From IMG/VR virus record IMGVR_UViG_3300031707_000090, positions 1 through 34,678 of that record: a DNA stretch of 34,678 bases; one strand, given 5' to 3'. Shown here piece by piece: positions 6,153 to 22,494 of the stretch (positions within the stretch are counted from its first letter, which is position 1; every line of letters begins with the position of its first letter). This DNA comes from a virus. Made by a program: the position numbers and the translations under genes. The notes under the pieces were generated by a model. It was not told the origin of the DNA. It saw only the letters and a list, made by a program, of their open reading frames with translations, and made no database searches.

Positions 6153-9100
6153 TCAGGCCGACGTCTTCTTCGGTTCCTCGATGGCGGCTCCGTAAGCCAA
6201 TCCCGGGATGGGGTTCCAGCCCTTGAGGTCGGACTTCCAGCCCTCGGCGACTCCCTTCGTGATGACGTCCTTCAGGCGGCGGTACGAGAGGCCCGCAATC
6301 CAGTCTTTCCGGGCCATGGGTGTCAGTTCGACACCTTTGAGGATCGGGCGGAACTTCACCGGGTTGGGGTTTGCTATCACCTGGTCCCGGCCCATCTCCT
6401 TGAGCGTGGCGATGTCCTCGTCCGTGAGGATCTTCTCGGCTCCTCCGAGGCGGTCGACCTCTTCCATGAGCATGGCGTTGCGGGCCAGATCGAGCGACAC
6501 CGGGACGGCCCCTTTGCGGTTCTCGGCCCGGACCACGTTGATGGGCACGATGTCGCCCTCGACGAAGTCCGTCCTCTGGCCGGAGTCCGTCACGAGGGCC
6601 GTGTCGGTGACGGACCGGACCACCGTCTCGATGTGCTTCTTCCGGACCTTCCCGCCGAAGATCCCGAAGATCTCGTCGACGAGATACTTCCGGGTGTGGT
6701 CGATCCCCTTGGTTTCGAGGAGGTCCCTGGGGTCCACGAGGCCCTGGGAGAGCCGGTCCCCGGGGTTCACCCTGGCGCCGGCCTTCACCGTGGGCTCGAA
6801 GGCCGTGAAGTGGGTCTTGCCGTCGAGGCGGACGTCCCACCCGCCGGGCGCCTTCTGGACCGACTCGACGATCCCGCCCTCCCTGGCCACGAGGGCCTTC
6901 TGGTCGACCTTCTCTGGCATCTCGAGAAGGGTTTTCAGCTTTTGGAATCCGGTCATCGTGGCCACGGGGGCGGCGCCAGACTCCGTGGTGCGCGCCTGGC
7001 CCGCGAGGCCCTGGACGTGCTTGGAACCCAGGATGAGTTGGGTCATCGGCTCGCCGATCGCCTGGGCGGCGGTCACCCCGATGAACGCGCCGGGCCTCGG
7101 CTGCCGGCCCCGCTCGTCGAGCCCGTAGGACCACAGATAGGTCCCCTGGGGATGGGTCGACATGAGCGGGCTCCCGAGCTCTACCGTCTTCTTCCCGGCC
7201 GCCTTGAGGCGGTTCCGGAGCTGGGCGTCGAAGAGGTCCCCGCGGCGGGCGAGACCCGGATACTCCGCCATGACGTACCGGCCGATCGACTCCCGGTCGT
7301 CTACCGAGAACTCGAGGCCCCGCTCCTCGGCGGGAGGGGCTCCCGGGGCGATCCGGTTCTCGATCGAGGTCTGGACCATGGACTTCGTGAGGGCTCCGGG
7401 TTCGGCCGTCGAGAGCTTCGTCTCGACCGCCCCCTTCCGGGATCCGTAGTTGGCCACCCAGAAGTCCGGAGGGGTCATCCCGTGGGCGTATCCCGTCCTG
7501 ATCGGGTAGGGGTGGATCTTCCCGCGGACGTCCTCCACGAGGACCGGCGCCGTGAGCATCTGGGCCGCCTGGTCGATGTTCCCGCGGCCCCCGGAGGTGA
7601 CCATCTGCCCGAGGGAGGTGTTCCTGTCGGCGAAGTCCTTCGAGGTGAGGACCTTGAGGTCGTCGTAGGCCTTGGAGTAGATCTGGACGACCTTCCGGTC
7701 GAGCTCCTTCCTGTTCTTGGTGGTCCTCGTGGCCTCGGCCGCCTGGGAGTCGTACTTCGACATCACCTCGTCCACGCGGGCCTTCGGGATGTGGAGGTCG
7801 TCGATCCCCACCGAAAGACCCGACAGGAAGGCGTATTCGTTGCCGACGTCCTTGAGGGTGTCCACCACGGGGGCGAGGGCCCTCGGGTTCTCCCGGGCGA
7901 TCGCCCCGACGATCTCGGAGGCCTTCTTCGAGTCGATCACCAGGTCCGGCCGGCGCAACTTCTCGGGCAGGGTCTTGTTGACGAGGACGCGGCCCACGGT
8001 GGTCTCGACCCCGCCCACCTGGACGACGTCGGTCTCGGAGATCTCCCCCTTGTGGAAGGCCATGACCGCCTCGATCTCCGAGACGTAGGTCTTGGACGTC
8101 TTCTTCCCCGCGCTCGTCAGCCGGTAGAGCCCCACCAGGGACTCGTGGCGAGGAACGGTCAGGACCTTCTCCGAGGTCGAGAGCGGCATCGTGGAGGGCA
8201 TCATCTCCTGCGCTTCCCGCACCGCCTCGTCGGTCACCGGGACGTGGATGCCGACGGTGTCTTGGACGACCAGGCCGTCCGCGGTGCAGAAAGTCCAGGC
8301 GCCGGGTACGGTGATGTCGTACATCACCATCTTCTCGCCGGTGTCCTCGGCGGACACGATCAGGTCCCATGCGATGGATTCGTCCTGAACCCAGTCCACC
8401 CAGCGCTCTGGGAGCTCGAGGCACGCCTCGACGGGAAGCGCCGCCAGGATCGCCCTGGCCTGGAAACGGGTGATGTATCCGCACGAAGAACGCCTGACTT
8501 CCGAGTAGAGGCTCTGCGCGCCCTTGTCCCGCTCAGTCACGCGCCTGAACTTCTTCGTCGCCGTAGTGTGGCGGCCCAGGAGCCTGGTGACGGATTCCCG
8601 GACCGAGGGCGGGAACGGAACCTTGTCGTCGCGGTTCGGGCCGATATCGGTCGCCGCGAGGCGGTCTAGGGCGGCCTGTTTCTGGGGGCTTTCCAGCCTA
8701 AGCCAGGGAAGCGCCTTCTTCACCTGGGGCGACGAGAACGTGACGATGTGGTTGGCCTTGTCGCGCCGGCGGTAGCTGGACAGCCCCGACTGGATGCCCA
8801 AGGACATCGCCAGCCCGCGGACGCCGAGGGCAAGGTCGTGGCTGATCGTGGTAAACGAGAGGCTGAATTGGGACTTCTTCGTGGTGGTTCCCCTGGACCA
8901 GCAGGCGCAGCCGTCCGTGTCCATCAGGCCGCAGAAGAGACCGCGGCGGAACGCGAGCGGGGCTCCCAAGACAAAGCCAGGAAGGCGCTTGTTTTCGGCG
9001 AGATGACCGCAGGTTTCCCTCAACCAGGCCGCAAAACCGTGGCAGGAATTCACGGCCTTCGCGCTCGCGCAGCCCTTTCCCTCAAATGTGTGCGGATGGG

Positions 9101-12100
9101 AACTTGTTCCAATAGGGTAGTCCGTGATCCTTGCGAGCTCGGAAGCCCACCGTTGAATGACAGGGTGGTCCTCTCTAGCACCAGCTAGAATGACCTGATA
9201 AAGATTGCTCCGCTCGCTCGTCCATCCGTCTCCGATGAACGCGCCCAAGAGCCATCCGAAACCTGCATCTAGGGGAGTCTTAGACTCAACGCGCCTGGAT
9301 GGCCTCCACAATAAGTCGCCGACAATCTCAATCGAGGAAACCACGGGCTTCTCGTCTATGGATCGGTCGCCGTTGAAGATGGGGGCGCAACGGCCGACGG
9401 AATCGGTGGGCCTGGACTTCTCGCACTCGAGCGTGTCCGGGTTAAACGTGTAGAGCGAGTGGTCCTGGGAAACGATGAGTTCCCGGCGGCGGCGCGTCTT
9501 GACGATCCACTTCCCGCAGTCCGGGTGGATCGACCACTTGGTGACCGGCATGAGACGGATCGTCCGGCCGTCGAAAGCCGGAATGAGGACACCGGGTGGG
9601 ACATCGTACTCGATATTTTTGCCCTTCTGGATCCCCGACTCCGCGATGTGAGGGAAGCCGGCGATGTGGACGCGAGAGGCGCCGCTATTTTGGTGGATGA
9701 AAAGTTCACAAAAATTACTATCGCCATCGAAGTCGGCCCCGAGGCCCACTGTCACCATCTGGTTCAGGTGAACGGACTTGTCGGGCACCAAAGTCGGCTT
9801 GAGGGCGATGATCCCGTGCTTGTGGAGCGTGGGGGCCCGGTTGACGATGACGGGCCGCTCGGCCATGGCCCGGCCGAGGGCGTCCTTCGCGATCATGGTG
9901 CGGTCGGCGATGTGCCTCTCGGCCTCGAGGGGGGCCATGCCCCGCTCGACCATCTTCCGGACCGCGAAGGGCTTGAAGATCACCCAGGCCATGTCCTCCG
10001 GGATCCCGACCTCGTCCATCCCGAGGGTCGGGTCGCCGGAGATGGCCGCCCGCCCGGAGAGTTCCTGCTGCTTGCGGATGACCCGGCTCTGGAAGTAGGA
10101 ACCCTTGGGATATTCCCCGGTGACGATGTCGAGGATCCCCCGGTAGTGCTCCGAGGAGACCGGATCGCCTGTCCCAGCGATCGCCTTGACCGCCTGGTAG
10201 AGGTCGGCGCGCTGCTCCCGGAGGTGCTCCTCAGGGAGCACTTTAGACAAGTCGGCGAGCTGGTTCTTGATGGCGACCAGGTCCCGGTACAGGTAGTTCA
10301 CGTCGGAGACGTTGAGCGTCCCGTCAGGGAGGGGGTACACGGGGCGGTAGATCGGCGGCAGGACGGGGACCTTCTTGATAAAGAGGTCGTCGGTTGAGAT
10401 CTGGTTGGTCCTGAGGTTCGACAGGAACCGGATCGCGCGGTTGAAGTGGTTGAGGTCGCTTCCCTTGGCGATCCTGGCCTGCCTCTTGAGTTCCTGGATC
10501 GCCTTCGGGATGTCGATCTGTCCGAGCATCCTCCGGAGCGCCGCGGGTCCCGTGAGTCCGCCCTGCTCTTTCGGGGTGGGTTTCGCGAAGGCGTCGACCG
10601 AGACGCGCTCCTCGATGATGTCGTCGTACTCTCTCTGCGTGAGGCCCATGACGCCGCGGATGGCCGGCTCGAACACCGGGTTCGGGACCTCGTAGGGGAG
10701 GTCCACGTGGGCCCACCTCTGGCCCGTGAGCCCCCCGGTCACCTCCTCGTCGAAGAGGCCGCCCTTCTCGGGCTTGAGGTTCTTCCCGAGGAGCATCCGG
10801 GAGCTCGAGATGGCCCCGGCGGACATCCCCTCCGTCTGGTCGTCCGTGAGGGGCTTGAGCTGGAACTGCGTCCCGCGCCGCTCGACGTTGATCCCGGCGC
10901 CCTTGAGGAGCGCGACGAACTTGTCGAAAGCGAAGGTCGACGTCGGCGGCGGCAGGGGCTCGTTCATCTGGAGCGCCCGCCAGAACTCGTCGTTCTTCCC
11001 CGCCTTGTAGTTGGTGAAGTCCCTGAGGTTGTAGAGGGCGCCGTGGCTAAGGAGCGCCGACTGCTCCATATGCCCGATCGCCTGGGCCCCCTCGCCGCTC
11101 TTGGCCGGCCGGAGGTCCGCGGTGTAGGCGCCGGACGGCTCCCGGGCGTTGAACTTCTCCTTGGCGGCGTGCTCCAGCTTCATCAGGAACTGGTTGCCGA
11201 CGGTCACCTGGCCCAAGGACCTCCCGGAGACCGGATCTATGACCTCCTCGGTTTCGGAGAGTCCGGCCTTCTTGAGGTCCCCGCGGATCCTCTCGCGGAG
11301 ATCTCCAGGCTCGAAGTTGTCGACGACGTAGGGCTTCCCGGTCTTCACGGCGATCTTCCCGGCGAGCGCCTCGTAGATCTGCGCCGGATTCATCCGCGAC
11401 GGGAGGCCGATGGGGTTGAGGAGAAGCTCGAGCGTCCGGCCGTCCTTCGTGCGGGGCATCTCCTCGTCCGGGACGACCCTGGAGACGAGCCCTTTGGCGG
11501 CGTACCGGGAGACGACCTTGTCGCCAGTCTGGAGCGGCTCCTCGGTCTTCACCAGGACCTTCGCCCGCCCTCCGGCCGTCCTCTGGACGTGCGTGACGAC
11601 GCCGTTGAAGGGTTCCTCCCACGTCTGGGAGGCGTCCGAGTACGGGCGGACCAGGTTCCGGGAGATCTTGCCGAGGACCACGTCCTCCGGGGTGATGTTC
11701 TTCTTGGCAAGGTACACGACCAGGGGATCTCCAGACCGGACGGTGGTCCCGATCTTAACCACGCCGTCGTCGTCGAGCTTCGCGAGCTGCTCCGCCGTGA
11801 AACGGTTCGGGAAGTAGGCGGCGTACCGGTCCCGCCCCGAGAGCCCCTCGGGGGAATCCCGGTGGTCGACCTTGTAGAGATGCTCCGAGGTCATCTTCTT
11901 GGCGGCCGACTCGGACATGACGATCGAGTCCTCGTAGGACCACCCGCGGTAGGGGACCCATCCCATGAGGAGGTTCTTCCCAATGGCGAGGTCGCCGTCT
12001 TTGGTGAAGTTGGAGTCAGCGAGGACGTCTCCCTTCTTCACCTTGTCGCCGACGCCGACCTTGGACTTTGACGTGATGAAGCTCCTGGAGTTCAGCGGGA

Positions 12101-13841
12101 AGTCCTTGTAGAGGTTGACCTTGTGGGACTTCCCGGCCCCGTCCCGGACGGTGATCTGGCGATCGGCCACCTCGTCCACTGTCCCGTCGACCGGGGATTT
12201 CGTCGCCGCGAGCCCCCCAACGATCCTCTCGAAGGTCTCGTCGAGCGCCTTCTTGGGTGTGGAAGCAGACCGCACCAGCGGCGGCTCCGGATTTATCACG
12301 GACACGGCCTGGTCGTACATCTTCGAGGCCATGAGTCCCCGCCCGCCGTGCATGGCGTTCACGAACGGGACCAGGTTCGTCGAGAAGTCGAAGAGGTCCT
12401 GGGGGCGCTCGACTATGAGGTCGACCTCGGCCGGCGAGACGGTCAGGACCTTCCCGCGGTGCATGACCCGGATCGAGGGGTCGACGGGAACGAACCGGCC
12501 CGAGGGTTCGCGCTTATACTCGTTGGGGAAGGCGATCCTCTTGTTGTAGACGTCCGGATGCCCCAAGGTGACGTGCTTCTGGGTCTTCGGGTCCCAGAAG
12601 GTCCTCAGGATGACCCCGTCCCCCTTTTTTGCCCCGACGGTGATGTGCATGACGGCGCCAATATCTCCGCCCTCGGGGCTATGGAGCGGATCAATCGTCC
12701 CCATCATCGACGGGTCCACGCCCCGCTCCACGTTCGTCACGGCCCTCTTGTTCCCGATGGACCCCTCCCCGAAGACCGTCGTGCGGGTGTGCCCGGAGAG
12801 GAAGTTGATGGGGTTGGACTGGGTCGGGTAGTTCGAGAGCTGGGATCGGTTGAAGAAGGACGTGACGACGTCGGACAGCTTGTCGGGCTGGATGATGTCC
12901 CGGATAGCGGTCTTCTCCCGCATCCGCTGCTTGATCCTGCCCTGGAGGAGCGGCGTGGTCTTCTCGATCCGCTCCACGAGGATGTCGTCGAAGGTCCGGA
13001 ACTCCTTGAAGCGGGAGTTGTCGATGTCGGGCTCCTCCTCGCCGGAGAGGACCCCCTGGAGGTTACCGAGGGCGTCGAGGACGAGCCCCTTGTCGAACTT
13101 CTTGTACTCCTTGCCGTACTTGAGCCTGGGGACGTCCGGTCCCATAGGGAGCGCGTAGAGGACCTCCCGGATCCGGTTGGCGTTCGTGGCGGGCTCCCCG
13201 GGGAGGCCCTTCTCTCCCGTCACGACGGTCCGGATCTTGGCGAGATCCTTCCTGAGGTCGGCATCGGCCTTCATCTTGTCCAGATGTTCCTGGCCGAGCT
13301 TCTCCGAGATCTCCTCGTCGGTCAGACCGAGCGCGTTGAGGTACGAGTACAGGGGAACGGTCTTCCCGTCGAGAAAGGCCGTCCACTTCTTCTCGGCGGG
13401 GTCGTAGTCCATCGAGAAGTTCCGCTTGGAATACCCGATGGGGAACTTGAAGTGGGCGGAAGTCTCGCTCGGGACAGACTTCACGTAGACGCCGGACTTC
13501 AGGCGGAGCTGGTTGGCGACCTGGAACTCTTCTCCGCCCACGATAAAGCTCTGCCTCGGAGTGATCTTCGGGATCTCCATGAGGCGGATCTTCTTCGCCC
13601 GGTCGATCTCCTTCCCGGAAGCGGGGTCCACGAGGGAGATGTCGGCGTACACGGGGATGGCCCAGCTCCTCATGTTGAGCTTGGCGTCGAGCTGGCCCTG
13701 GAAGTCCTGCGGATCCAGGTTGTCGTCGGCCCAGACCCTGTTCACTTTGAGGGTCTTGATGCCGGTCACGCCGAGGGACTTCCGCAAGGTCGTCGTCAGG
13801 CGGCCTTTGAGGCTCTCGTAGATTTCCCCGGCGTCGATCAT
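6153..13841 (-). CDS. Fused beta-beta' DNA-directed RNA polymerase with LAGLIDADG intein
   Basis: A single 2562-residue chain carries both catalytic RNA polymerase subunits in bacterial order. Beta-type segments: an N-terminal FIVGGEEFQVANQL, the fork region with NPINFLSGHTRTTVFGEGS (about residue 340), KNLLMGWVPYRGWSYEDSIV, and GDKVVSRYAAKG (about 773), keeping both active-site lysines. Beta'-type segments start near residue 1026 (GGLFDEEVTGG), where the usual zinc ribbon is absent. They continue with PVLPPIYRP, NRAPTLHKHG, the catalytic GADFDGD (Asp 1370, 1372, 1374), the trigger loop SRKGAVETKLSTAEPG and TAAQAIGEPMTQ. Residues 1375-1861 are an intein, so the spliced enzyme is about 2075 residues, shorter than host beta plus beta'. 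The start ATG follows the portal stop by 6 nt with only a weak ribosome-binding site, suggesting coupling. Beta-beta' fusions are known in a few bacteria; here the phage context is clear. Confidence 0.93.
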   Translation of the reverse strand: MIDAGEIYESLKGRLTTTLRKSLGVTGIKTLKVNRVWADDNLDPQDFQGQLDAKLNMRSWAIPVYADISLVDPASGKEIDRAKKIRLMEIPKITPRQSFIVGGEEFQVANQLRLKSGVYVKSVPSETSAHFKFPIGYSKRNFSMDYDPAEKKWTAFLDGKTVPLYSYLNALGLTDEEISEKLGQEHLDKMKADADLRKDLAKIRTVVTGEKGLPGEPATNANRIREVLYALPMGPDVPRLKYGKEYKKFDKGLVLDALGNLQGVLSGEEEPDIDNSRFKEFRTFDDILVERIEKTTPLLQGRIKQRMREKTAIRDIIQPDKLSDVVTSFFNRSQLSNYPTQSNPINFLSGHTRTTVFGEGSIGNKRAVTNVERGVDPSMMGTIDPLHSPEGGDIGAVMHITVGAKKGDGVILRTFWDPKTQKHVTLGHPDVYNKRIAFPNEYKREPSGRFVPVDPSIRVMHRGKVLTVSPAEVDLIVERPQDLFDFSTNLVPFVNAMHGGRGLMASKMYDQAVSVINPEPPLVRSASTPKKALDETFERIVGGLAATKSPVDGTVDEVADRQITVRDGAGKSHKVNLYKDFPLNSRSFITSKSKVGVGDKVKKGDVLADSNFTKDGDLAIGKNLLMGWVPYRGWSYEDSIVMSESAAKKMTSEHLYKVDHRDSPEGLSGRDRYAAYFPNRFTAEQLAKLDDDGVVKIGTTVRSGDPLVVYLAKKNITPEDVVLGKISRNLVRPYSDASQTWEEPFNGVVTHVQRTAGGRAKVLVKTEEPLQTGDKVVSRYAAKGLVSRVVPDEEMPRTKDGRTLELLLNPIGLPSRMNPAQIYEALAGKIAVKTGKPYVVDNFEPGDLRERIRGDLKKAGLSETEEVIDPVSGRSLGQVTVGNQFLMKLEHAAKEKFNAREPSGAYTADLRPAKSGEGAQAIGHMEQSALLSHGALYNLRDFTNYKAGKNDEFWRALQMNEPLPPPTSTFAFDKFVALLKGAGINVERRGTQFQLKPLTDDQTEGMSAGAISSSRMLLGKNLKPEKGGLFDEEVTGGLTGQRWAHVDLPYEVPNPVFEPAIRGVMGLTQREYDDIIEERVSVDAFAKPTPKEQGGLTGPAALRRMLGQIDIPKAIQELKRQARIAKGSDLNHFNRAIRFLSNLRTNQISTDDLFIKKVPVLPPIYRPVYPLPDGTLNVSDVNYLYRDLVAIKNQLADLSKVLPEEHLREQRADLYQAVKAIAGTGDPVSSEHYRGILDIVTGEYPKGSYFQSRVIRKQQELSGRAAISGDPTLGMDEVGIPEDMAWVIFKPFAVRKMVERGMAPLEAERHIADRTMIAKDALGRAMAERPVIVNRAPTLHKHGIIALKPTLVPDKSVHLNQMVTVGLGADFDGDSNFCELFIHQNSGASRVHIAGFPHIAESGIQKGKNIEYDVPPGVLIPAFDGRTIRLMPVTKWSIHPDCGKWIVKTRRRRELIVSQDHSLYTFNPDTLECEKSRPTDSVGRCAPIFNGDRSIDEKPVVSSIEIVGDLLWRPSRRVESKTPLDAGFGWLLGAFIGDGWTSERSNLYQVILAGAREDHPVIQRWASELARITDYPIGTSSHPHTFEGKGCASAKAVNSCHGFAAWLRETCGHLAENKRLPGFVLGAPLAFRRGLFCGLMDTDGCACWSRGTTTKKSQFSLSFTTISHDLALGVRGLAMSLGIQSGLSSYRRRDKANHIVTFSSPQVKKALPWLRLESPQKQAALDRLAATDIGPNRDDKVPFPPSVRESVTRLLGRHTTATKKFRRVTERDKGAQSLYSEVRRSSCGYITRFQARAILAALPVEACLELPERWVDWVQDESIAWDLIVSAEDTGEKMVMYDITVPGAWTFCTADGLVVQDTVGIHVPVTDEAVREAQEMMPSTMPLSTSEKVLTVPRHESLVGLYRLTSAGKKTSKTYVSEIEAVMAFHKGEISETDVVQVGGVETTVGRVLVNKTLPEKLRRPDLVIDSKKASEIVGAIARENPRALAPVVDTLKDVGNEYAFLSGLSVGIDDLHIPKARVDEVMSKYDSQAAEATRTTKNRKELDRKVVQIYSKAYDDLKVLTSKDFADRNTSLGQMVTSGGRGNIDQAAQMLTAPVLVEDVRGKIHPYPIRTGYAHGMTPPDFWVANYGSRKGAVETKLSTAEPGALTKSMVQTSIENRIAPGAPPAEERGLEFSVDDRESIGRYVMAEYPGLARRGDLFDAQLRNRLKAAGKKTVELGSPLMSTHPQGTYLWSYGLDERGRQPRPGAFIGVTAAQAIGEPMTQLILGSKHVQGLAGQARTTESGAAPVATMTGFQKLKTLLEMPEKVDQKALVAREGGIVESVQKAPGGWDVRLDGKTHFTAFEPTVKAGARVNPGDRLSQGLVDPRDLLETKGIDHTRKYLVDEIFGIFGGKVRKKHIETVVRSVTDTALVTDSGQRTDFVEGDIVPINVVRAENRKGAVPVSLDLARNAMLMEEVDRLGGAEKILTDEDIATLKEMGRDQVIANPNPVKFRPILKGVELTPMARKDWIAGLSYRRLKDVITKGVAEGWKSDLKGWNPIPGLAYGAAIEEPKKTSA
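8259..9719 (-). other. Intein (487 aa) with LAGLIDADG homing endonuclease inside the polymerase active site
   Basis: Removing residues 1375-1861 joins GADFDGD directly to TVGIHVPVTDEAV, which restores the normal beta' sequence. The insert starts with Ser (SNFCELF) and ends GLVVQD before Thr+1. It has a block B-like LIVSQDHSLYTFN (His 87 of the intein), endonuclease motifs LLGAFIGDG (157-165) and GLMDTDG (264-270), and block F YDITVPGAWTF (467-477). Ser-1 and a C-terminal Asp preceded by Gln, instead of His-Asn, are atypical but have precedents among inteins. Its base composition is visibly less GC-rich than the flanking polymerase sequence. Confidence 0.9.
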
Positions 13842-13847
13842 CGGAGG

Positions 13848-16637
13848 TTACACCCGGCTCGGGGATGGCGTCTTTCCCGGATTCCTGGTTGGAGGCCTCT
13901 GGTCCGGATTCGGCCGCGTGTCGATCCCCTGGAGCTCCATCAACTTCTGCTGCACGATGGCGTGGAGGCTCTGATCCCGGAGCTGAAGGTCCATGAGCAT
14001 CTTCTCCCGATCGGCCTCCCCCGCCTGCATGAGGGTCGAGGCGAACTGCCCGGCCCACATATCCGGGTTGAGGGCCGGCTGGCCCGCCTGGGAGACGCCC
14101 GGCTTGTTGGGCTCCTTCCCGAGGATCCCTTTGGGCGTGAACTGCCCTCCCTGGGGCTGCTGGACCTGCGTCTGCATCATCATGGCGTTGATCTGCTCGG
14201 GGCTGTAGCCCATCGCCTGGTACTCCGCCATGAGGTTCTTCTGGGCCTTGGCCATCTCCATCTGGGCCTTCTGCTGATACTGCATCTGGACCAGCATGGC
14301 CTCGCCCTCGGCCTCTGCCTGCTTCTTGGCCATGGCGATCTGGATCTTGGAGCGCTTCTCGACCTCTTCCTGCATCTTCTCGTACTCTTTGGCCATGACG
14401 TGGCCGACTTCCGAGATGAACGTGTCGTCGGAGACCTTCCCCTGGACGTTCGCCTGCATGAGGAGGCTCTTCTGCTGGATGTCGTCCACCCACCGGAGGC
14501 GGGTCATCGAGACGTCGACCTTCCGCAGCTTCGTCGCGACGGACACCTTCTCGATGACGAACCGGACCAGGGTCTTGAGGCCCCGGACGTGGTTCATGAA
14601 GAAGTTCTCCAGCATCCGGAAGGTGACGCTGGAGCCGCTCCAGGACGCGCCCCCGAGGAGGAATTCCCTGGGAACCTGGAGGCCGACGATCATGGTCTCC
14701 TGGAGGAAGCGCATCTCGTCGATGACCGAGAGCGCACGAGCATCCCCGCCGATCTGCTGGAACCCCGTGGGAATCGGGAAGGTCGCGATGTAGTTGGGGT
14801 CCCGGCGCCACTTCTTAATGGCGTTCTCGACCTCCTGGCGCCACTTGGCCATCGCGAGGTGACCGTGCGGGTCCAGGTTCGCCTGGGGCAGCGGATACAG
14901 CATCCAGAGGGGAAGGATGTGCTGCTGGAGCAGGGCTTCGCGGGCCTTGAGAAGGAGCTGGAAGTAGAACTTGCTCTTGAGGAGAGGCACGATGAGCGGC
15001 ATCCCCCAGCCGTTGTCGAAGTAGCTGAAGCTGGGCCGGCGGATGTGGATCAGGTTCGCCGTGTCGAGCTCCACCCGGGCGCCCTCCTTGGCGGCCATGA
15101 TGAAGCTCATCGGGGTCTCTTCGAGGACCTTCCGGCGGCCGGCCCAGATCTGCCGCTTGAACTGGTTGGGGATGTTGTAGTAGTACGTCGAGTTCCCGGA
15201 TATGGGGTTGAACTCGATGTCGATGTTCGCGGGGTCCCACCGGACGATGTTCATACCCTGGGTGGTCCGCGTCATGGGCTTGTCGACGACGTTGAAGGGG
15301 ATCAGCTCGTCCGGAGAGCAGGACTTGCACTTGGACAGGAAGCGGAAGTCCTGGAGCCTGAAATGAAACTTCATCGACCGGATGGGGGACTGTTTCTTGC
15401 AGTGGGGACAGACCAGGAAGCGGATGAAGGGGACGTAGAAGCTGGCGATGTAGTTCCCGTAGCAGTTCCCCGTGAGAACGCCATTGTCGATCGTGAAAGT
15501 ATGCGTCTGCTCCTCAACGCAACAGAAAACCTCGTCGACAATCCCCGTCTCGCGGACATCCACCACCCGGACGTGGCGCCCGTAGTTGGTGGGCTTGAAG
15601 TTTTCCTCGAAACGAGCCCTGTGATGAGACAGCAGAAAATCCTGGGGCAGCAGGTATTGCCTGTACAGGGAAAGGTAATGCTGGACCCCATCGCCGTATG
15701 ACGTTTGCGCGAAGTGGCCCCTGACAACCCCGGCAATCATCCCGATTCGGGGAAGCTGGGCCTCGATAGCCCTCAAGGGTGCCTCGGCCCTTTGTGTCAG
15801 CACGGCGTATCCAGCGACGTCCACCGATCCGTCGGCCGCAAGGAACCCACAGACGAAGCCATACCAATAACTGGCTGAGGATTCGTTCTTGGGGATCGAC
15901 TTGTAGTGCGGCGGGAGTCCGTGGATAAACATCACGCCGGGCTGGGATTCGTACGGCGCCGACCCGTGGCCCTCGAAATACTTAATCATCTCGAGGTCTT
16001 TTTTGCCGAAGAACGCGGCACGCGACTGTTTCCCGTCGTTGTAAAGGGTTCCATCGCCGTAGACAAATCCGTGCCGAACACCCTCCAGGAAATCTTCGTT
16101 CTGCTCGGGACGTGGGGCAACATTCCTGATCAAGGTCAGACCTTGGATGTCGGTGGTTGGCCTCGTTATTATGTTGCCAGTCGTTGTCAGGATGGGCCAT
16201 TGGTGCTCTTTTGTCGCCAGGACGGTCCGGCCGTCGCTGAATTCGACCTCAAGAAGCTCTTGGCGTCCGAACGACTTGAACATGGCCGGGCGGTACACTC
16301 CGTCCCTGGAAAGGACGTCCGCGGTTTTCCCCGCCAGGTCGCGGAGTCGGAACACCCCATCCCTGGTTATGGCCCTCACGTCACCGTGGAAGCAATAATA
16401 GTCCAGCCCGGCCTCCTCGAGGCGCGTTCGAATCGAGAGGTCGACTTCCAGGATCCGTGTCCAGCGGTCCCTCAGATCGCCGTCTTTCGTGTCGTAGATG
16501 AAGTCCGTGATGGGGAACTGAGCCAGCTTGTAGACCGTCGCGGAGATGATCTCGTCGGAGAAGGCGTAGAGCTGGCAAAATTTAAAGAGATCCTTGAGAC
16601 GCGGAGGGATGAATAAGCTCGCGATGTCAAAGAAAAG
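13848..16637 (-). CDS. Portal protein (T4 gp20-like) with intein; 5' end unresolved
   Basis: The portal forms the dodecameric ring through which DNA enters the head. Family-like features are DIASLFIPPRLKDLFKFC, YKLAQFPITDFIYD, EAGLDYY joined to CYGNYIASF after intein removal, a four-Cys ribbon (CPHC and CKSC), GGASWSGSSVTFRMLENFF, and a long Gln/Met/Ala-rich coiled-coil C-terminus. The open frame begins just after a TAA at 16638-16640, but there is no ATG, GTG or TTG before the intein, so the frame cannot start by itself. Adding one T to the T4 run at 16633-16636 would join it to a frame opened by an ATG at 16759 with a good ribosome-binding site, which then holds one TAG (16664-16666). The mature extein is at least 619 residues. 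It sits immediately upstream of the polymerase gene. Confidence 0.85.
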   Translation of the reverse strand, partial: LFFDIASLFIPPRLKDLFKFCQLYAFSDEIISATVYKLAQFPITDFIYDTKDGDLRDRWTRILEVDLSIRTRLEEAGLDYYCFHGDVRAITRDGVFRLRDLAGKTADVLSRDGVYRPAMFKSFGRQELLEVEFSDGRTVLATKEHQWPILTTTGNIITRPTTDIQGLTLIRNVAPRPEQNEDFLEGVRHGFVYGDGTLYNDGKQSRAAFFGKKDLEMIKYFEGHGSAPYESQPGVMFIHGLPPHYKSIPKNESSASYWYGFVCGFLAADGSVDVAGYAVLTQRAEAPLRAIEAQLPRIGMIAGVVRGHFAQTSYGDGVQHYLSLYRQYLLPQDFLLSHHRARFEENFKPTNYGRHVRVVDVRETGIVDEVFCCVEEQTHTFTIDNGVLTGNCYGNYIASFYVPFIRFLVCPHCKKQSPIRSMKFHFRLQDFRFLSKCKSCSPDELIPFNVVDKPMTRTTQGMNIVRWDPANIDIEFNPISGNSTYYYNIPNQFKRQIWAGRRKVLEETPMSFIMAAKEGARVELDTANLIHIRRPSFSYFDNGWGMPLIVPLLKSKFYFQLLLKAREALLQQHILPLWMLYPLPQANLDPHGHLAMAKWRQEVENAIKKWRRDPNYIATFPIPTGFQQIGGDARALSVIDEMRFLQETMIVGLQVPREFLLGGASWSGSSVTFRMLENFFMNHVRGLKTLVRFVIEKVSVATKLRKVDVSMTRLRWVDDIQQKSLLMQANVQGKVSDDTFISEVGHVMAKEYEKMQEEVEKRSKIQIAMAKKQAEAEGEAMLVQMQYQQKAQMEMAKAQKNLMAEYQAMGYSPEQINAMMMQTQVQQPQGGQFTPKGILGKEPNKPGVSQAGQPALNPDMWAGQFASTLMQAGEADREKMLMDLQLRDQSLHAIVQQKLMELQGIDTRPNPDQRPPTRNPGKTPSPSRV
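15465..16394 (-). other. Intein (310 aa) with LAGLIDADG endonuclease in the portal gene
   Basis: The insert starts with Cys (CFHGDVRAIT) and ends VLTGN before Cys+1. It carries block B ATKEHQWPI (His 64), endonuclease motifs GFVYGDG (109-115) and GFLAADG (183-189), and a block F region DEVFCCVEEQTHTFT. Excision joins LDYY to CYGNYIASF in the conserved portal core. The penultimate residue is Gly instead of His. The boundaries are precise by motif and by the restored portal sequence. Its GC content is lower than that of the flanking extein. Confidence 0.9.
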
Positions 16638-16812: not shown

Positions 16813-17892
16813 TTAGATGGCGACATATACGTGCCCATGTGCAATCCGCCATATCGTGGACTGAGTCACGCCGAATTCTCCTGCCATCTGGAGCTGGGTG
16901 GCGTTCCTGCCCCAATAGCGTCTCCGGATTTCGGCGGCCTGCTTGTTGGTGAACTTCGCCTTCGTTCCCTCCTCGCCGCGCAGGATGCGGCCGTTGAACT
17001 GAATAAATTTCGAGCGGCCCTTAGAGATCATGTCCTGGGTATTATCCTTCATCGTTCCAAGTCGGAGGTGTTCGGGGTTTACGCATTTTGGGTTATCGCA
17101 CTTGTGAAGAATGCACATCCCTTTCTTGACGGGGCCGTAATGGATCAGGTACGAGAACCTGTGCGGAAGAAGGCATTGGCCGAGCACGCGGAACTGTCCG
17201 TAGTTTCTGTTGTTGCGGCAACCACCCCAAACCCAGCACGAGGGTCCCCTCTCGACCTTGGCCCAGAACCTCTCCAGATCCGACGGAGACGGTTTCCCGG
17301 AGAGTTCGCGGCCCGCGGACTGCCATCTCCTTGGAGGCTTAGTGCCGCGCTTCTTCCAATAATCCTTCAGGTTGTCCGACGGCGTCCCCAAGAACAAGTG
17401 AGAGGGCCGCACGCAGGAGGGGTTGTCGCACTTGTGGCAGACGTCCATTCCCTTGGGGATGCGGCTTCTGTGAAGCTCGAACGAAAAGCGATGGGGCGCC
17501 ACGAATCCGCCCCCAGCCGAGAAGATTCCGTATCGCTTATTCCCATCCCTCGCCCCAGTCCAGATCCAGCAGGTTTTTGTCTTTCGGACCTTCACCCAAA
17601 ACCTTTCCTCGGGCGTCATGTGGGTCCGATCGCCAGCCACGATCAAGGCGAGGTGTTTCGGGTTAACGCAGAGGCGGTTTCCGCAGGTCCACCACAGGGT
17701 CTTTCCGGCCGGGATCTCGCGTCCGGCCAACAGCCACGACGTTCGGTGTGCCGAGACCGGACTTCCGTGTTGGCCCTGGATCACTCCGTATCCGCCGGAG
17801 ACCGCGCCTTTCCAGGGCCAGCAGCCGTCCGTCTTGCGGACTTTCTCCCAGAATCGCTCCAGGAAAGGCTTGTACTGGTTCGGGTAGGCCAA
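16813..17892 (-). CDS. HNH homing endonuclease with three tandem HNH repeats
   Basis: The 359-aa protein contains three copies of an HNH unit built on C-W-x-W-x-G, an APHR/LPHR-type motif, and C/L-H-K-C-D-N-P-x-C-V-x-P-x-H-L-x-L-G-T. Copies lie at about residues 20-75, 105-180 and 220-295. The second (VCHKCDNPSCVRPSHL) and third (LHKCDNPKCVNPEHL) look intact. In the first the leading His is replaced (LWWTCGNRLCVNPKHL), so it is probably inactive. The C-terminus has a helix-turn-helix (NATQLQMAGEFGVTQSTIW) typical of target-binding domains in intron endonucleases. The start is TTG after GAGGCGAGGAGAG. It is inserted between the phosphoesterase and portal genes and has less GC-biased codon use than its neighbours, as expected for a mobile endonuclease. 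Confidence 0.85.
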   Translation of the reverse strand: MAYPNQYKPFLERFWEKVRKTDGCWPWKGAVSGGYGVIQGQHGSPVSAHRTSWLLAGREIPAGKTLWWTCGNRLCVNPKHLALIVAGDRTHMTPEERFWVKVRKTKTCWIWTGARDGNKRYGIFSAGGGFVAPHRFSFELHRSRIPKGMDVCHKCDNPSCVRPSHLFLGTPSDNLKDYWKKRGTKPPRRWQSAGRELSGKPSPSDLERFWAKVERGPSCWVWGGCRNNRNYGQFRVLGQCLLPHRFSYLIHYGPVKKGMCILHKCDNPKCVNPEHLRLGTMKDNTQDMISKGRSKFIQFNGRILRGEEGTKAKFTNKQAAEIRRRYWGRNATQLQMAGEFGVTQSTIWRIAHGHVYVAI

Positions 17893-19620: not shown

Positions 19621-20617
19621 GGGCCTGCTCGATGTGGGCCTTGACGAACCGGCGGCTGGCGTTCGGCAGGCCCCAGATCGCGTCGGGGTCCTTTTTCGCC
19701 TTGGCGGCGAAGTCCTTCCCGAACATCTTCTCAAGGAGGTCGCCGCTCGAGGAGACGAAGGCCTTGACCTCGTCCTTCGTCGGGAGACTGTCCGGGTGCC
19801 CGACGGGGCAGGCTGACATGGCGACCTTCTCCATGAGGACGCCGTAGGGCTCGAGGTCCCGGTCCCACCGGGACGTGAGGTCGAACTGGCGGTCGAAGGT
19901 CTCGAGGAGCTGGACGATCTCTTTCGGTTCGAACGTCGCGCGCTTCTCGATGAGCTCGTCGAGGAGGCCCACGGCCTCGGGGTGGTCGGGGACGAGGCGT
20001 TTCCTCTGTGCGCACTGCATGAAGAGGGCTTCCTGGTCCACCACGGGGTCCTTGAGGGCGAAGGGCCGGAGGTCCTCGTGGACCTCGAAGCCGAACTTCT
20101 CCGCGGCCGGGGCCATCGCGGCGGCGAGCTTCTTCTTCTCCTCGCGGCTGTACTGCTCGCGGTGGGCGACGTACTCCTGCTGGAGGTGCCCCAGGACGTC
20201 CTCGGAGCCGGCCGTGGACTCGGCGATCTTGTCCAGGCGGACGTAGTTGCCTTCCAGGGTCGCGTCGACGGCGTACTTCTCGACCGCGGGGAGGGCTTTC
20301 ATCCCGAAGAGGGTCGACGCCTCCTTGATCTTGGTCGCGGCGGCGACTTTCGCCTCCGGGGGGAGCTTCTCGTGGGTCAGCTCGAAGTAGACGTTGGCCA
20401 GGACCGTGTTGGGGAGGTCGTTGACGGGGTACTTCCGGATGGCCTCGCCCTTCTTGGTCAGGAAGACCACCCCGAACTGGGAGTCTTCCAGGACGGGGAT
20501 GACCGTGGGGTCGCCGATGGGAAGGTGGGCAACCTTCGCGAAGTAGGGGGACGCCGCCAGGGCCTTGAAGCCCAGGTCGTCCACGAAATCCAGCGTCTTT
20601 CCGCCAAGGCTAAACAT
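19592..20617 (-). CDS. Hypothetical protein, 341 aa (359 with an amber-containing extension)
   Basis: Not recognised. It is a mostly helical, charged protein with an N-terminal beta-rich portion (SQFGVVFLTKKGEAIRKYP). The ATG at 20617 has no ribosome-binding site at a normal distance. Eighteen codons upstream in the same frame an ATG (20671) has AAAGGGG at good spacing and lies just below a promoter-like pair. The extension contains two TAG codons (20660-20662 and 20627-20629). Either translation starts inefficiently at 20617 or amber codons are read through. It is the first gene of the unit leading to the portal and polymerase. Confidence 0.75.
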   Translation of the reverse strand: MFSLGGKTLDFVDDLGFKALAASPYFAKVAHLPIGDPTVIPVLEDSQFGVVFLTKKGEAIRKYPVNDLPNTVLANVYFELTHEKLPPEAKVAAATKIKEASTLFGMKALPAVEKYAVDATLEGNYVRLDKIAESTAGSEDVLGHLQQEYVAHREQYSREEKKKLAAAMAPAAEKFGFEVHEDLRPFALKDPVVDQEALFMQCAQRKRLVPDHPEAVGLLDELIEKRATFEPKEIVQLLETFDRQFDLTSRWDRDLEPYGVLMEKVAMSACPVGHPDSLPTKDEVKAFVSSSGDLLEKMFGKDFAAKAKKDPDAIWGLPNASRRFVKAHIEQARDNATSEAV

Positions 20618-21729: not shown

Positions 21730-22494
21730 TCAGTCTCCGAGGACTTTTTTTATCGTCGCGTCGGTCTTCTGGAAGACGTCGAGGCTCTTCACGGGGATCG
21801 AGACGAGCCCCGTCCTGCGGTTGATCGAGTACTCCGCGCGGAGCGACCCCTTGTCATGGAGGGTCGAGACGTCGAGGCGCACCTGTGACGGTCCCGGGAC
21901 GCCGAGAGTGGTCATGGGGATCTCTTTCGTGATCTCCCCAAGGACCCGCTTCAGGCGCTCCCTGGCCTTGTTGGTCCCCATCTCCTCCTCGAGCTGCGCC
22001 TTGACGTAGAACCCCCGGCCGCCGGAGTAGATCGTGCGGACCCCCTTCACGTCGGGCTCCTGGCGGAGCCGGTGCGCGACGAGCTTGGTGATCTCCTTCG
22101 TTTTGTCCCAGGGGACGTTGCCCTTCGGGTCCACGTCCACATACAGGTGGTCCACGTTCTCCCCGTGGACTGGGTGGAACTCGACCGTGTGCTGGCTCAC
22201 CCAGTTCATGTAGTCCGAAGGGTCGCCGGGGCCCTTGGCGCCCTCCTCGATCACGATCTCTTTCCCTTCGGGGGTCTTCCGGCGGACTACCGGTTCGGCG
22301 TGCTGTTGGACCAGCATCACCGGGCGGCCAGAGAGCTGAGGCAGGAGGCGCTTTCTCGTCTTAGGATGCAGATAGTAGTCCTGGATCTGGGATTTGGTGA
22401 GCTTCGCGTGTTCGCCCTCGACCAGGACCTCGTCGGGATCTCCCGCCGCGGCCTTGATGAGCTCCGACAGGAAGCCGGCCAGGAACTCGTCCAT
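21730..22494 (-). CDS. LigD-type polymerase/primase domain protein
   Basis: This 254-aa protein matches the polymerase (archaeo-eukaryotic primase fold) module of LigD, which adds nucleotides during end joining. Visible landmarks are LTKSQIQDYYLHPKTRKRLL with LSGRPVMLVQ, the catalytic DVD in HLYVDVDPKG, YSGGRGFYV, the third acidic motif in QVRLDV, and LRAEYSINRRTGLVSIPV. In LigD the second motif is normally SGGKGLHV; here the His is replaced by Tyr, a substitution that may reduce activity. The first about 20 residues are extra. It is encoded alone; the ATG overlaps the upstream stop (TGATG). Together with the phosphoesterase gene at 17934 it forms a split LigD pair. No Ku or ATP-dependent ligase is in the window. 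Confidence 0.85.
   Translation of the reverse strand: MDEFLAGFLSELIKAAAGDPDEVLVEGEHAKLTKSQIQDYYLHPKTRKRLLPQLSGRPVMLVQQHAEPVVRRKTPEGKEIVIEEGAKGPGDPSDYMNWVSQHTVEFHPVHGENVDHLYVDVDPKGNVPWDKTKEITKLVAHRLRQEPDVKGVRTIYSGGRGFYVKAQLEEEMGTNKARERLKRVLGEITKEIPMTTLGVPGPSQVRLDVSTLHDKGSLRAEYSINRRTGLVSIPVKSLDVFQKTDATIKKVLGD

Follow-up and report, generated by a model that had tools for sequence, protein, structure and literature searches.

The stretch analysed here, the complete IMG/VR virus record IMGVR_UViG_3300031707_000090 (34,678 nt; hereafter the window), carries a phage RNA polymerase gene that is interrupted within its catalytic loop. Very probably, the interruption is a full-length class-1 LAGLIDADG homing intein in the DFDGD loop of the beta-beta' RNA polymerase, which is spliced out of its precursor and has spread by homing. 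The precursor gene (6153..13841, minus strand, as for all intein and extein features below; 2562 aa) is a fusion with RpoB first and RpoC second, and its open reading frame (ORF) matched Pfam RNA_pol_Rpb2_6 (5e-54), Rpb1_2, and Rpb1_5 as well as the NCBIfam beta/beta' model PRK09603 (6e-128). Translation of the minus strand from 9740 to 8240 reads GADFDGD / SNFCELF...DGLVVQD / TVGIHV. The N-extein (9720..13841; 1374 aa) ends in GADFDGD, with the codons of the DFDGD motif (9720..9734) abutting the insertion, and the C-extein (6153..8258; 701 aa) starts with TVGIHVPV, including Thr+1 (8256..8258) as its nucleophile. The insert between them (8259..9719) comprises 487 codons, in frame and free of stops. 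DFDGD is the catalytic motif in the Mg-binding loop of multisubunit RNA polymerases (PMC4996933), and an intein at this position agrees with the known preference of RNA polymerase inteins for the most conserved positions near the active site (PMC1635734). A preliminary description of this DNA had proposed a 487-aa intein at 8259-9719 that splits DFDGD from the next residue, with Ser-1, a Gln-Asp end and Thr+1 in place of Cys-1 and His-Asn; the translation reproduced these coordinates exactly and bore out each of the residues.

The insert is not a chance match but an intein with a homing endonuclease at these borders, which are given by translation, profiles, predicted structure, and three empty relatives (L004, L005, and L006). 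Both class-1 nucleophiles are present, i.e., Ser1 (9717..9719; Ser in 12 and Cys in 2 of 14 aligned inteins at the site) and Thr+1. Block B (residues 80–92, 9444..9482; ELIVSQDHSLYTF) contains SQDH in place of the canonical TxxH, with Ser84 replacing Thr and His87 retained. Blocks F and G (residues 464–487, 8259..8330; MVMYDITVPGAWTFCTADGLVVQD) include Asp468 (block F) and Asp487. These four residues are invariant in alignment A1 of 13 inteins from the site. Trp stands where block F normally has its histidine (F13) and Gln where the penultimate histidine is expected (G6), and the C-terminus is Gln-Asp rather than the usual His-Asn, Asp being an accepted substitute (PMC4031507). A class-3 intein was ruled out, as Ser1 is present and block F4 is Asp468 rather than Cys. 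By Pfam, the insert matched LAGLIDADG_3 (PF14528, E = 1e-7) and, under the curated cut-off, Intein_splicing (E = 1.4e-4); a profile built from 13 relatives matched PI-PkoII at E = 5e-18, and other inteins too. An AlphaFold2 (AF2) model from the same alignment (predicted local distance difference test, pLDDT, 83.6; predicted template modelling score, pTM, 0.81) has a HINT fold, with Z-scores of 14–29 to solved inteins for model residues 9–494. Its match to PI-PkoII reached Z 28.6 across 395 residues. Further matches were PI-PfuI, several VMA inteins, and the Ser-1, cysteine-less Aes123 PolB1 intein (Z 17.2). The structural alignments span approximately intein residue 3 to Asp487, and this last residue pairs with the final chain residue of solved inteins (2cw7 537, 1dq3 454). 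The endonuclease region (approximately residues 148–437, 8409..9278) was delimited by PF14528, and the model aligns there to I-Tsp061I and I-DmoI. It holds two LAGLIDADG motifs that retain their catalytic acids: WLLGAFIGDGW with Asp164 (9222..9254), and RRGLFCGLMDTDGC, which includes FCGLMDTDG, with Asp269 (8907..8948). Third-position GC (GC3) of the intein is 0.79, below all equal-length extein windows (0.90–0.95), which suggests a foreign origin.

Relatives with an empty site provide the homing signature. L004 (IMGVR 3300031952_004568) shares 99.9% identity with the window across 11,589 bp and precisely lacks the insert, with DFDGD followed by T and a protein sequence around the site identical to the window exteins. 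The more distant L005 and L006 (84% and 75% identical in protein sequence immediately before the site) are empty as well; DFDGDT is contiguous in all three, i.e., removal of the in-frame insert restores the conserved protein. The search for intein-free homologues at the same site, which the preliminary description had advised, was therefore successful. Window and L004 differ at ten positions, six of which are no more than 92 bp from the insertion (9771, 9750, 9726, 9720, 8256, and 8166). Every one of these six is silent, and together they delimit a presumed co-conversion tract (8166..9771). No differences were found across the approximately 10.2 kb preceding this cluster, and five of the ten fall within 75 bp (P ~8e-8 under uniform placement). 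Differences clustered at the site are expected if an intein is copied together with its flanks by homing or recombination, and their combination with an empty allele is the pattern of a homing intein. The other four differences form a separate cluster (19997-20121), approximately 10.3 kb from the intein site and near neither this intein nor the second one described below. Comparison beyond L004 revealed that the nearest inteins (L100, L060, and L044; 37–39% identity) sit in polymerases just 37–48% identical near the site, whereas the nearest polymerases (84% and 75%) are intein-free. By the approximately unbiased test, the grouping of the polymerases is rejected on the intein data (p-AU 0.002). 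The corresponding test on the polymerase tree is partly trivial, since it divides the window from the empty relatives close to it. Trees were used for such grouping tests only, several intein branches being weak or long. From these distributions, the element looks like a mobile parasite that is spreading rather than a needed switch.

We lean towards a broader conclusion, namely that inteins recur in the DFDGD loop of multisubunit RNA polymerases of phages. The site would be occupied mainly by one lineage with Ser-1 and an Asp end in which both the penultimate and the block F histidine are missing. In some phages this intein would be naturally split (once with its halves approximately 78 kb apart and on opposite strands), so that the active site is built only by trans-splicing. 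Viral contigs were searched for ADFDGD codons followed by Ser or Cys with the far end unconstrained, unrelated and intein-free matches were removed, and ends were read by a downstream-polymerase profile or directly. Inteins at the DFDGD site were found in approximately 30 further viral contigs, 25 of them distinct, and 23 of the 26 distinct inteins (window included) end in Asp. Written as the last two intein residues and the +1 residue, contiguous Asp-ended members carry WD/T (L100, L060, L044, L212, L183, L236, L038, L133, and L232), WD/C (L073 group), YD/T (L068), ND/T (L249), or QD/T (window, L250, and L108, the latter with Cys1), and further Asp-ended members are split or broken across ORFs (L042, L245, L087, L157, L069, L158, L089, and L082). 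Only L213 and L036 (HN/T) and L124 (HQ/T) have other ends. Because of this predominance of Asp, Ser-1 with an Asp end is the family norm at the site, neither decay nor an oddity of the window copy; the preliminary description had named the end residues correctly, but they are not unusual here. Position F13 is Trp, Lys, Pro, Leu, or Tyr in the relatives, and none of the Asp-ended members has a penultimate His; C-terminal release would have to use residues other than these two histidines. Between the close members L073 and L026, the ratio of nonsynonymous to synonymous substitution rates (dN/dS) is 0.13, reflecting purifying selection; dN/dS is informative for this pair only, the window intein being too diverged. 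A peptide-pattern search of the viral contigs returned no close relative of the window intein, and tblastn against named phages gave weak matches only (E ~0.05), mainly to terminase inteins. A scan of genome contigs for NADFDGD followed by Ser (AGY) or Cys yielded a single relevant contig, L124, which stems from a bacterial metagenome-assembled genome (MAG), is possibly phage-derived, and has an intein that ends in Gln. L213 and L036 combine the canonical His-Asn end with a classical ..DT block A and apparently represent a second, independent occupation of the site. In Salmonella phage Arash and Vibrio phage D181, an apparent break near DFDGD turned out to be an ordinary two-gene split further downstream, with no intein sequence at the gene ends.

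The split versions follow a common layout. In five viruses (L042, L245, L087, L157, and L069), the N-terminal part of RpoC passes DFDGD and continues for 129–139 intein residues, including block B, before a stop. A separate Met-initiated gene encodes approximately 42–58 residues of the intein C-terminal part (YDFTVEDYFTF..DGVFVQD or similar), followed by the remainder of RpoC. In L158, the break lies earlier, between blocks A and B. The pairs L042/L258, L245/L257, L087/L261, L157/L259, L069/L260, and L158/L262 end in Asp (VQD or VFD) and have Ser, Cys, or Thr as the +1 residue. An ORF of 377–397 aa lies between the intein halves in L042 and L245 and may be a candidate free endonuclease, and in L157 the halves are approximately 78 kb apart on opposite strands. 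These polymerases would be complete only after successful trans-splicing; this supports an active Asp-ended chemistry without proving it. The record that contains L069 also holds a second, intein-free RpoC (L263) with DFDGDQ, which suggests that this virus has two RNA polymerases, like jumbo phages.

The analysis established the borders, a predicted fold, the membership in a family, the conservation of catalytic residues, the empty allele, and the clustering of silent changes; from these we infer splicing, its chemistry, DNA cutting, the direction of transfer, and the dependence of the polymerase on splicing, as follows. One precursor protein would be made, in which Ser1 attacks the bond after Asp(−1) and the acyl group is transferred to Thr+1. 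Asp487, in the place of Asn, would then cyclise and free the intein, while DFDGD would be ligated to TVGIHV to give an ordinary polymerase. According to a review, an intein whose last residue is Glu, Gln, or Asp follows this route as well, the terminal residue being the one that cyclises, although other routes are possible (PMC4031507). During co-infection, the endonuclease would cut the empty DFDGD-Thr codons of related phages, and repair of the cut would copy intein and flanks into the empty allele. Two features would keep the intein in place: the site hardly varies, and an imprecise deletion would ruin the polymerase. The window intein is probably splicing-competent, and transcription likely depends on splicing, given 487 residues in the catalytic loop and contiguous DFDGD-T in all empty relatives; the unspliced precursor would almost certainly be unable to transcribe.

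Several points weigh against this explanation. The window intein lacks both the block F and the penultimate His, cyclisation of Asp is chemically slower than that of Asn, and Asp(−1) promotes N-terminal cleavage; splicing could therefore be slow or partial. With L005 and L006 as reference, the window seems to carry the derived state at two of the six silent sites and L004 at another two, the remaining two being ambiguous, so that the sites do not settle the direction of transfer, i.e., gain versus loss by recombination. Moreover, the L004 contig stops 220 bp beyond the insertion site. This last point would also fit an assembly artefact, with either the empty or the filled contig being chimeric, but we give such an error hardly any credence: the borders are codon-exact, L005 and L006, which come from other samples, have the same empty site, every flanking difference is a silent change at a third codon position, a pattern unlike that of errors, and the neighbouring second intein is present in L004. 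Similarly negligible is a shifted border, in which the intein would run from Asp to Gln486 with Asp as the +1 residue. The spliced product would be identical, and with Asp at both ends the DNA alone leaves the border ambiguous; however, Asp is no nucleophile at position 1 or +1, the inteins of the site have Ser or Cys at position 1 (a condition of the search) and Thr, Ser, or Cys at +1, and the structural pairing of Asp487 with the last residue of solved inteins favours the border used here.

The preliminary description had further suggested that splicing acts as a control switch on phage transcription. Splicing would then be held back by slow Asp chemistry, redox state, or temperature, timing transcription, and the intein would be kept for this benefit. 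An insertion in the catalytic loop almost surely renders the precursor inactive, the Asp end and the absent histidines hint at slow final steps, and conditional splicing is reported in other inteins (PMC6195587). We nevertheless regard a regulated switch as improbable and the proposal as unsupported, because the near-identical virus L004, like two other relatives, does without the intein. The patchy distribution and the intact-looking endonuclease match a homing parasite, and a simple redox switch is disfavoured without Cys-1. Even less probable is a decaying intein, in which Ser-1, the Asp end, and the lost histidines reflect a loss of splicing, with a polymerase gene that is either non-functional or superseded by another copy. 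The missing His-Asn and the weak Pfam splicing-domain score would fit such decay, but the near-invariance of the same end among divergent inteins of the site, an ORF that is open throughout, and the low dN/dS in two relatives argue against it.

Taken simply as an intein, the element of the window is ordinary. PI-PkoII (Thermococcus kodakarensis DNA polymerase intein, PDB 2cw7), its best match by both structure and profile, as well as PI-PfuI and TliVMA share the HINT fold, the LAGLIDADG endonuclease, and the layout. Identity to PI-PkoII and the archaeal LAGLIDADG inteins is only 17%, their host protein and site are different, and inteins of this type end in the canonical Asn. Known Asp- or Gln-ended inteins (Amitai 2004; Pab PolII; CIV ribonucleotide reductase; reviewed in PMC4031507) share the class-1 mechanism and the non-Asn end but occur sporadically, in ribonucleotide reductase and PolII, whereas in the present case a family at a single RNA polymerase site has Asp as its rule. 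Inteins of archaeal rPol A' and A'' and of eukaryotic and viral RPB2 likewise occupy highly conserved positions near the active site of RNA polymerase (PMC1635734). Window protein P0001 matched the NCBIfam A'' model PRK14898 at 2e-11. At the DFDGD site, the usual +1 residue is Gln in bacteria and Glu in archaea, neither of which can act as a nucleophile. Mycobacteriophage terminase inteins are also phage-borne, lie near active centres, splice, and encode endonucleases that cut intein-free partners (PMC5050341). They differ in host protein, being in terminase rather than RNA polymerase, and in insertion sites. Split inteins in fractured genes (gp41-1 and NrdJ type) were reportedly described by Dassa in 2009; L042 and L245, whose halves flank an ORF that may encode a free endonuclease, resemble these, with the difference that their host protein is an RNA polymerase, divided within the catalytic loop. 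No report of an intein at the DFDGD site of a phage RNA polymerase, or of such split polymerases, was found in the open literature, subscription journals lying mostly outside this search and a prior report being possible. As far as the open literature goes, three things are new, namely the site, the regularity with which Asp forms the end, and the split polymerases.

Inteins with a terminal Asp have so far been isolated curiosities, and a family of more than 20 members at one site, both contiguous and split, could teach how inteins splice without Asn and without the two histidines. It may also supply new split inteins for protein engineering. The near-identical pair of viruses with and without the intein, together with the short silent tract, preserves a natural trace of homing or recombination that took place recently in uncultured phages, and offers a clean way to test the effect of an intein in the polymerase active site on transcription.

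Regarding the neighbourhood, the gene next upstream contains a second intein of 310 aa (15465-16394, minus strand; DYY/CFHGDVRAITRDG...VLTGN/C), which is present in L004 and absent from L005 and L006. Based on a weak match to phrog_64, this is probably the portal gene. An ORF at 16813-17892 (minus strand) encodes an HNH endonuclease (PF13392, 7e-31); as approximately 1.1 kb at this position is absent from L005, it probably represents a free-standing homing endonuclease. Three mobile elements would then probably lie within a span of approximately 10 kb. Further along, an ORF at 21730-22494 (minus strand) has a LigD-type primase-polymerase domain (PF21686, 9e-12). Salmonella phage Arash (OQ632216, 128120-134670) carries the portal gene, a small ORF, and the RNA polymerase in an order much as in the window, and both phages may share a portal-polymerase block.

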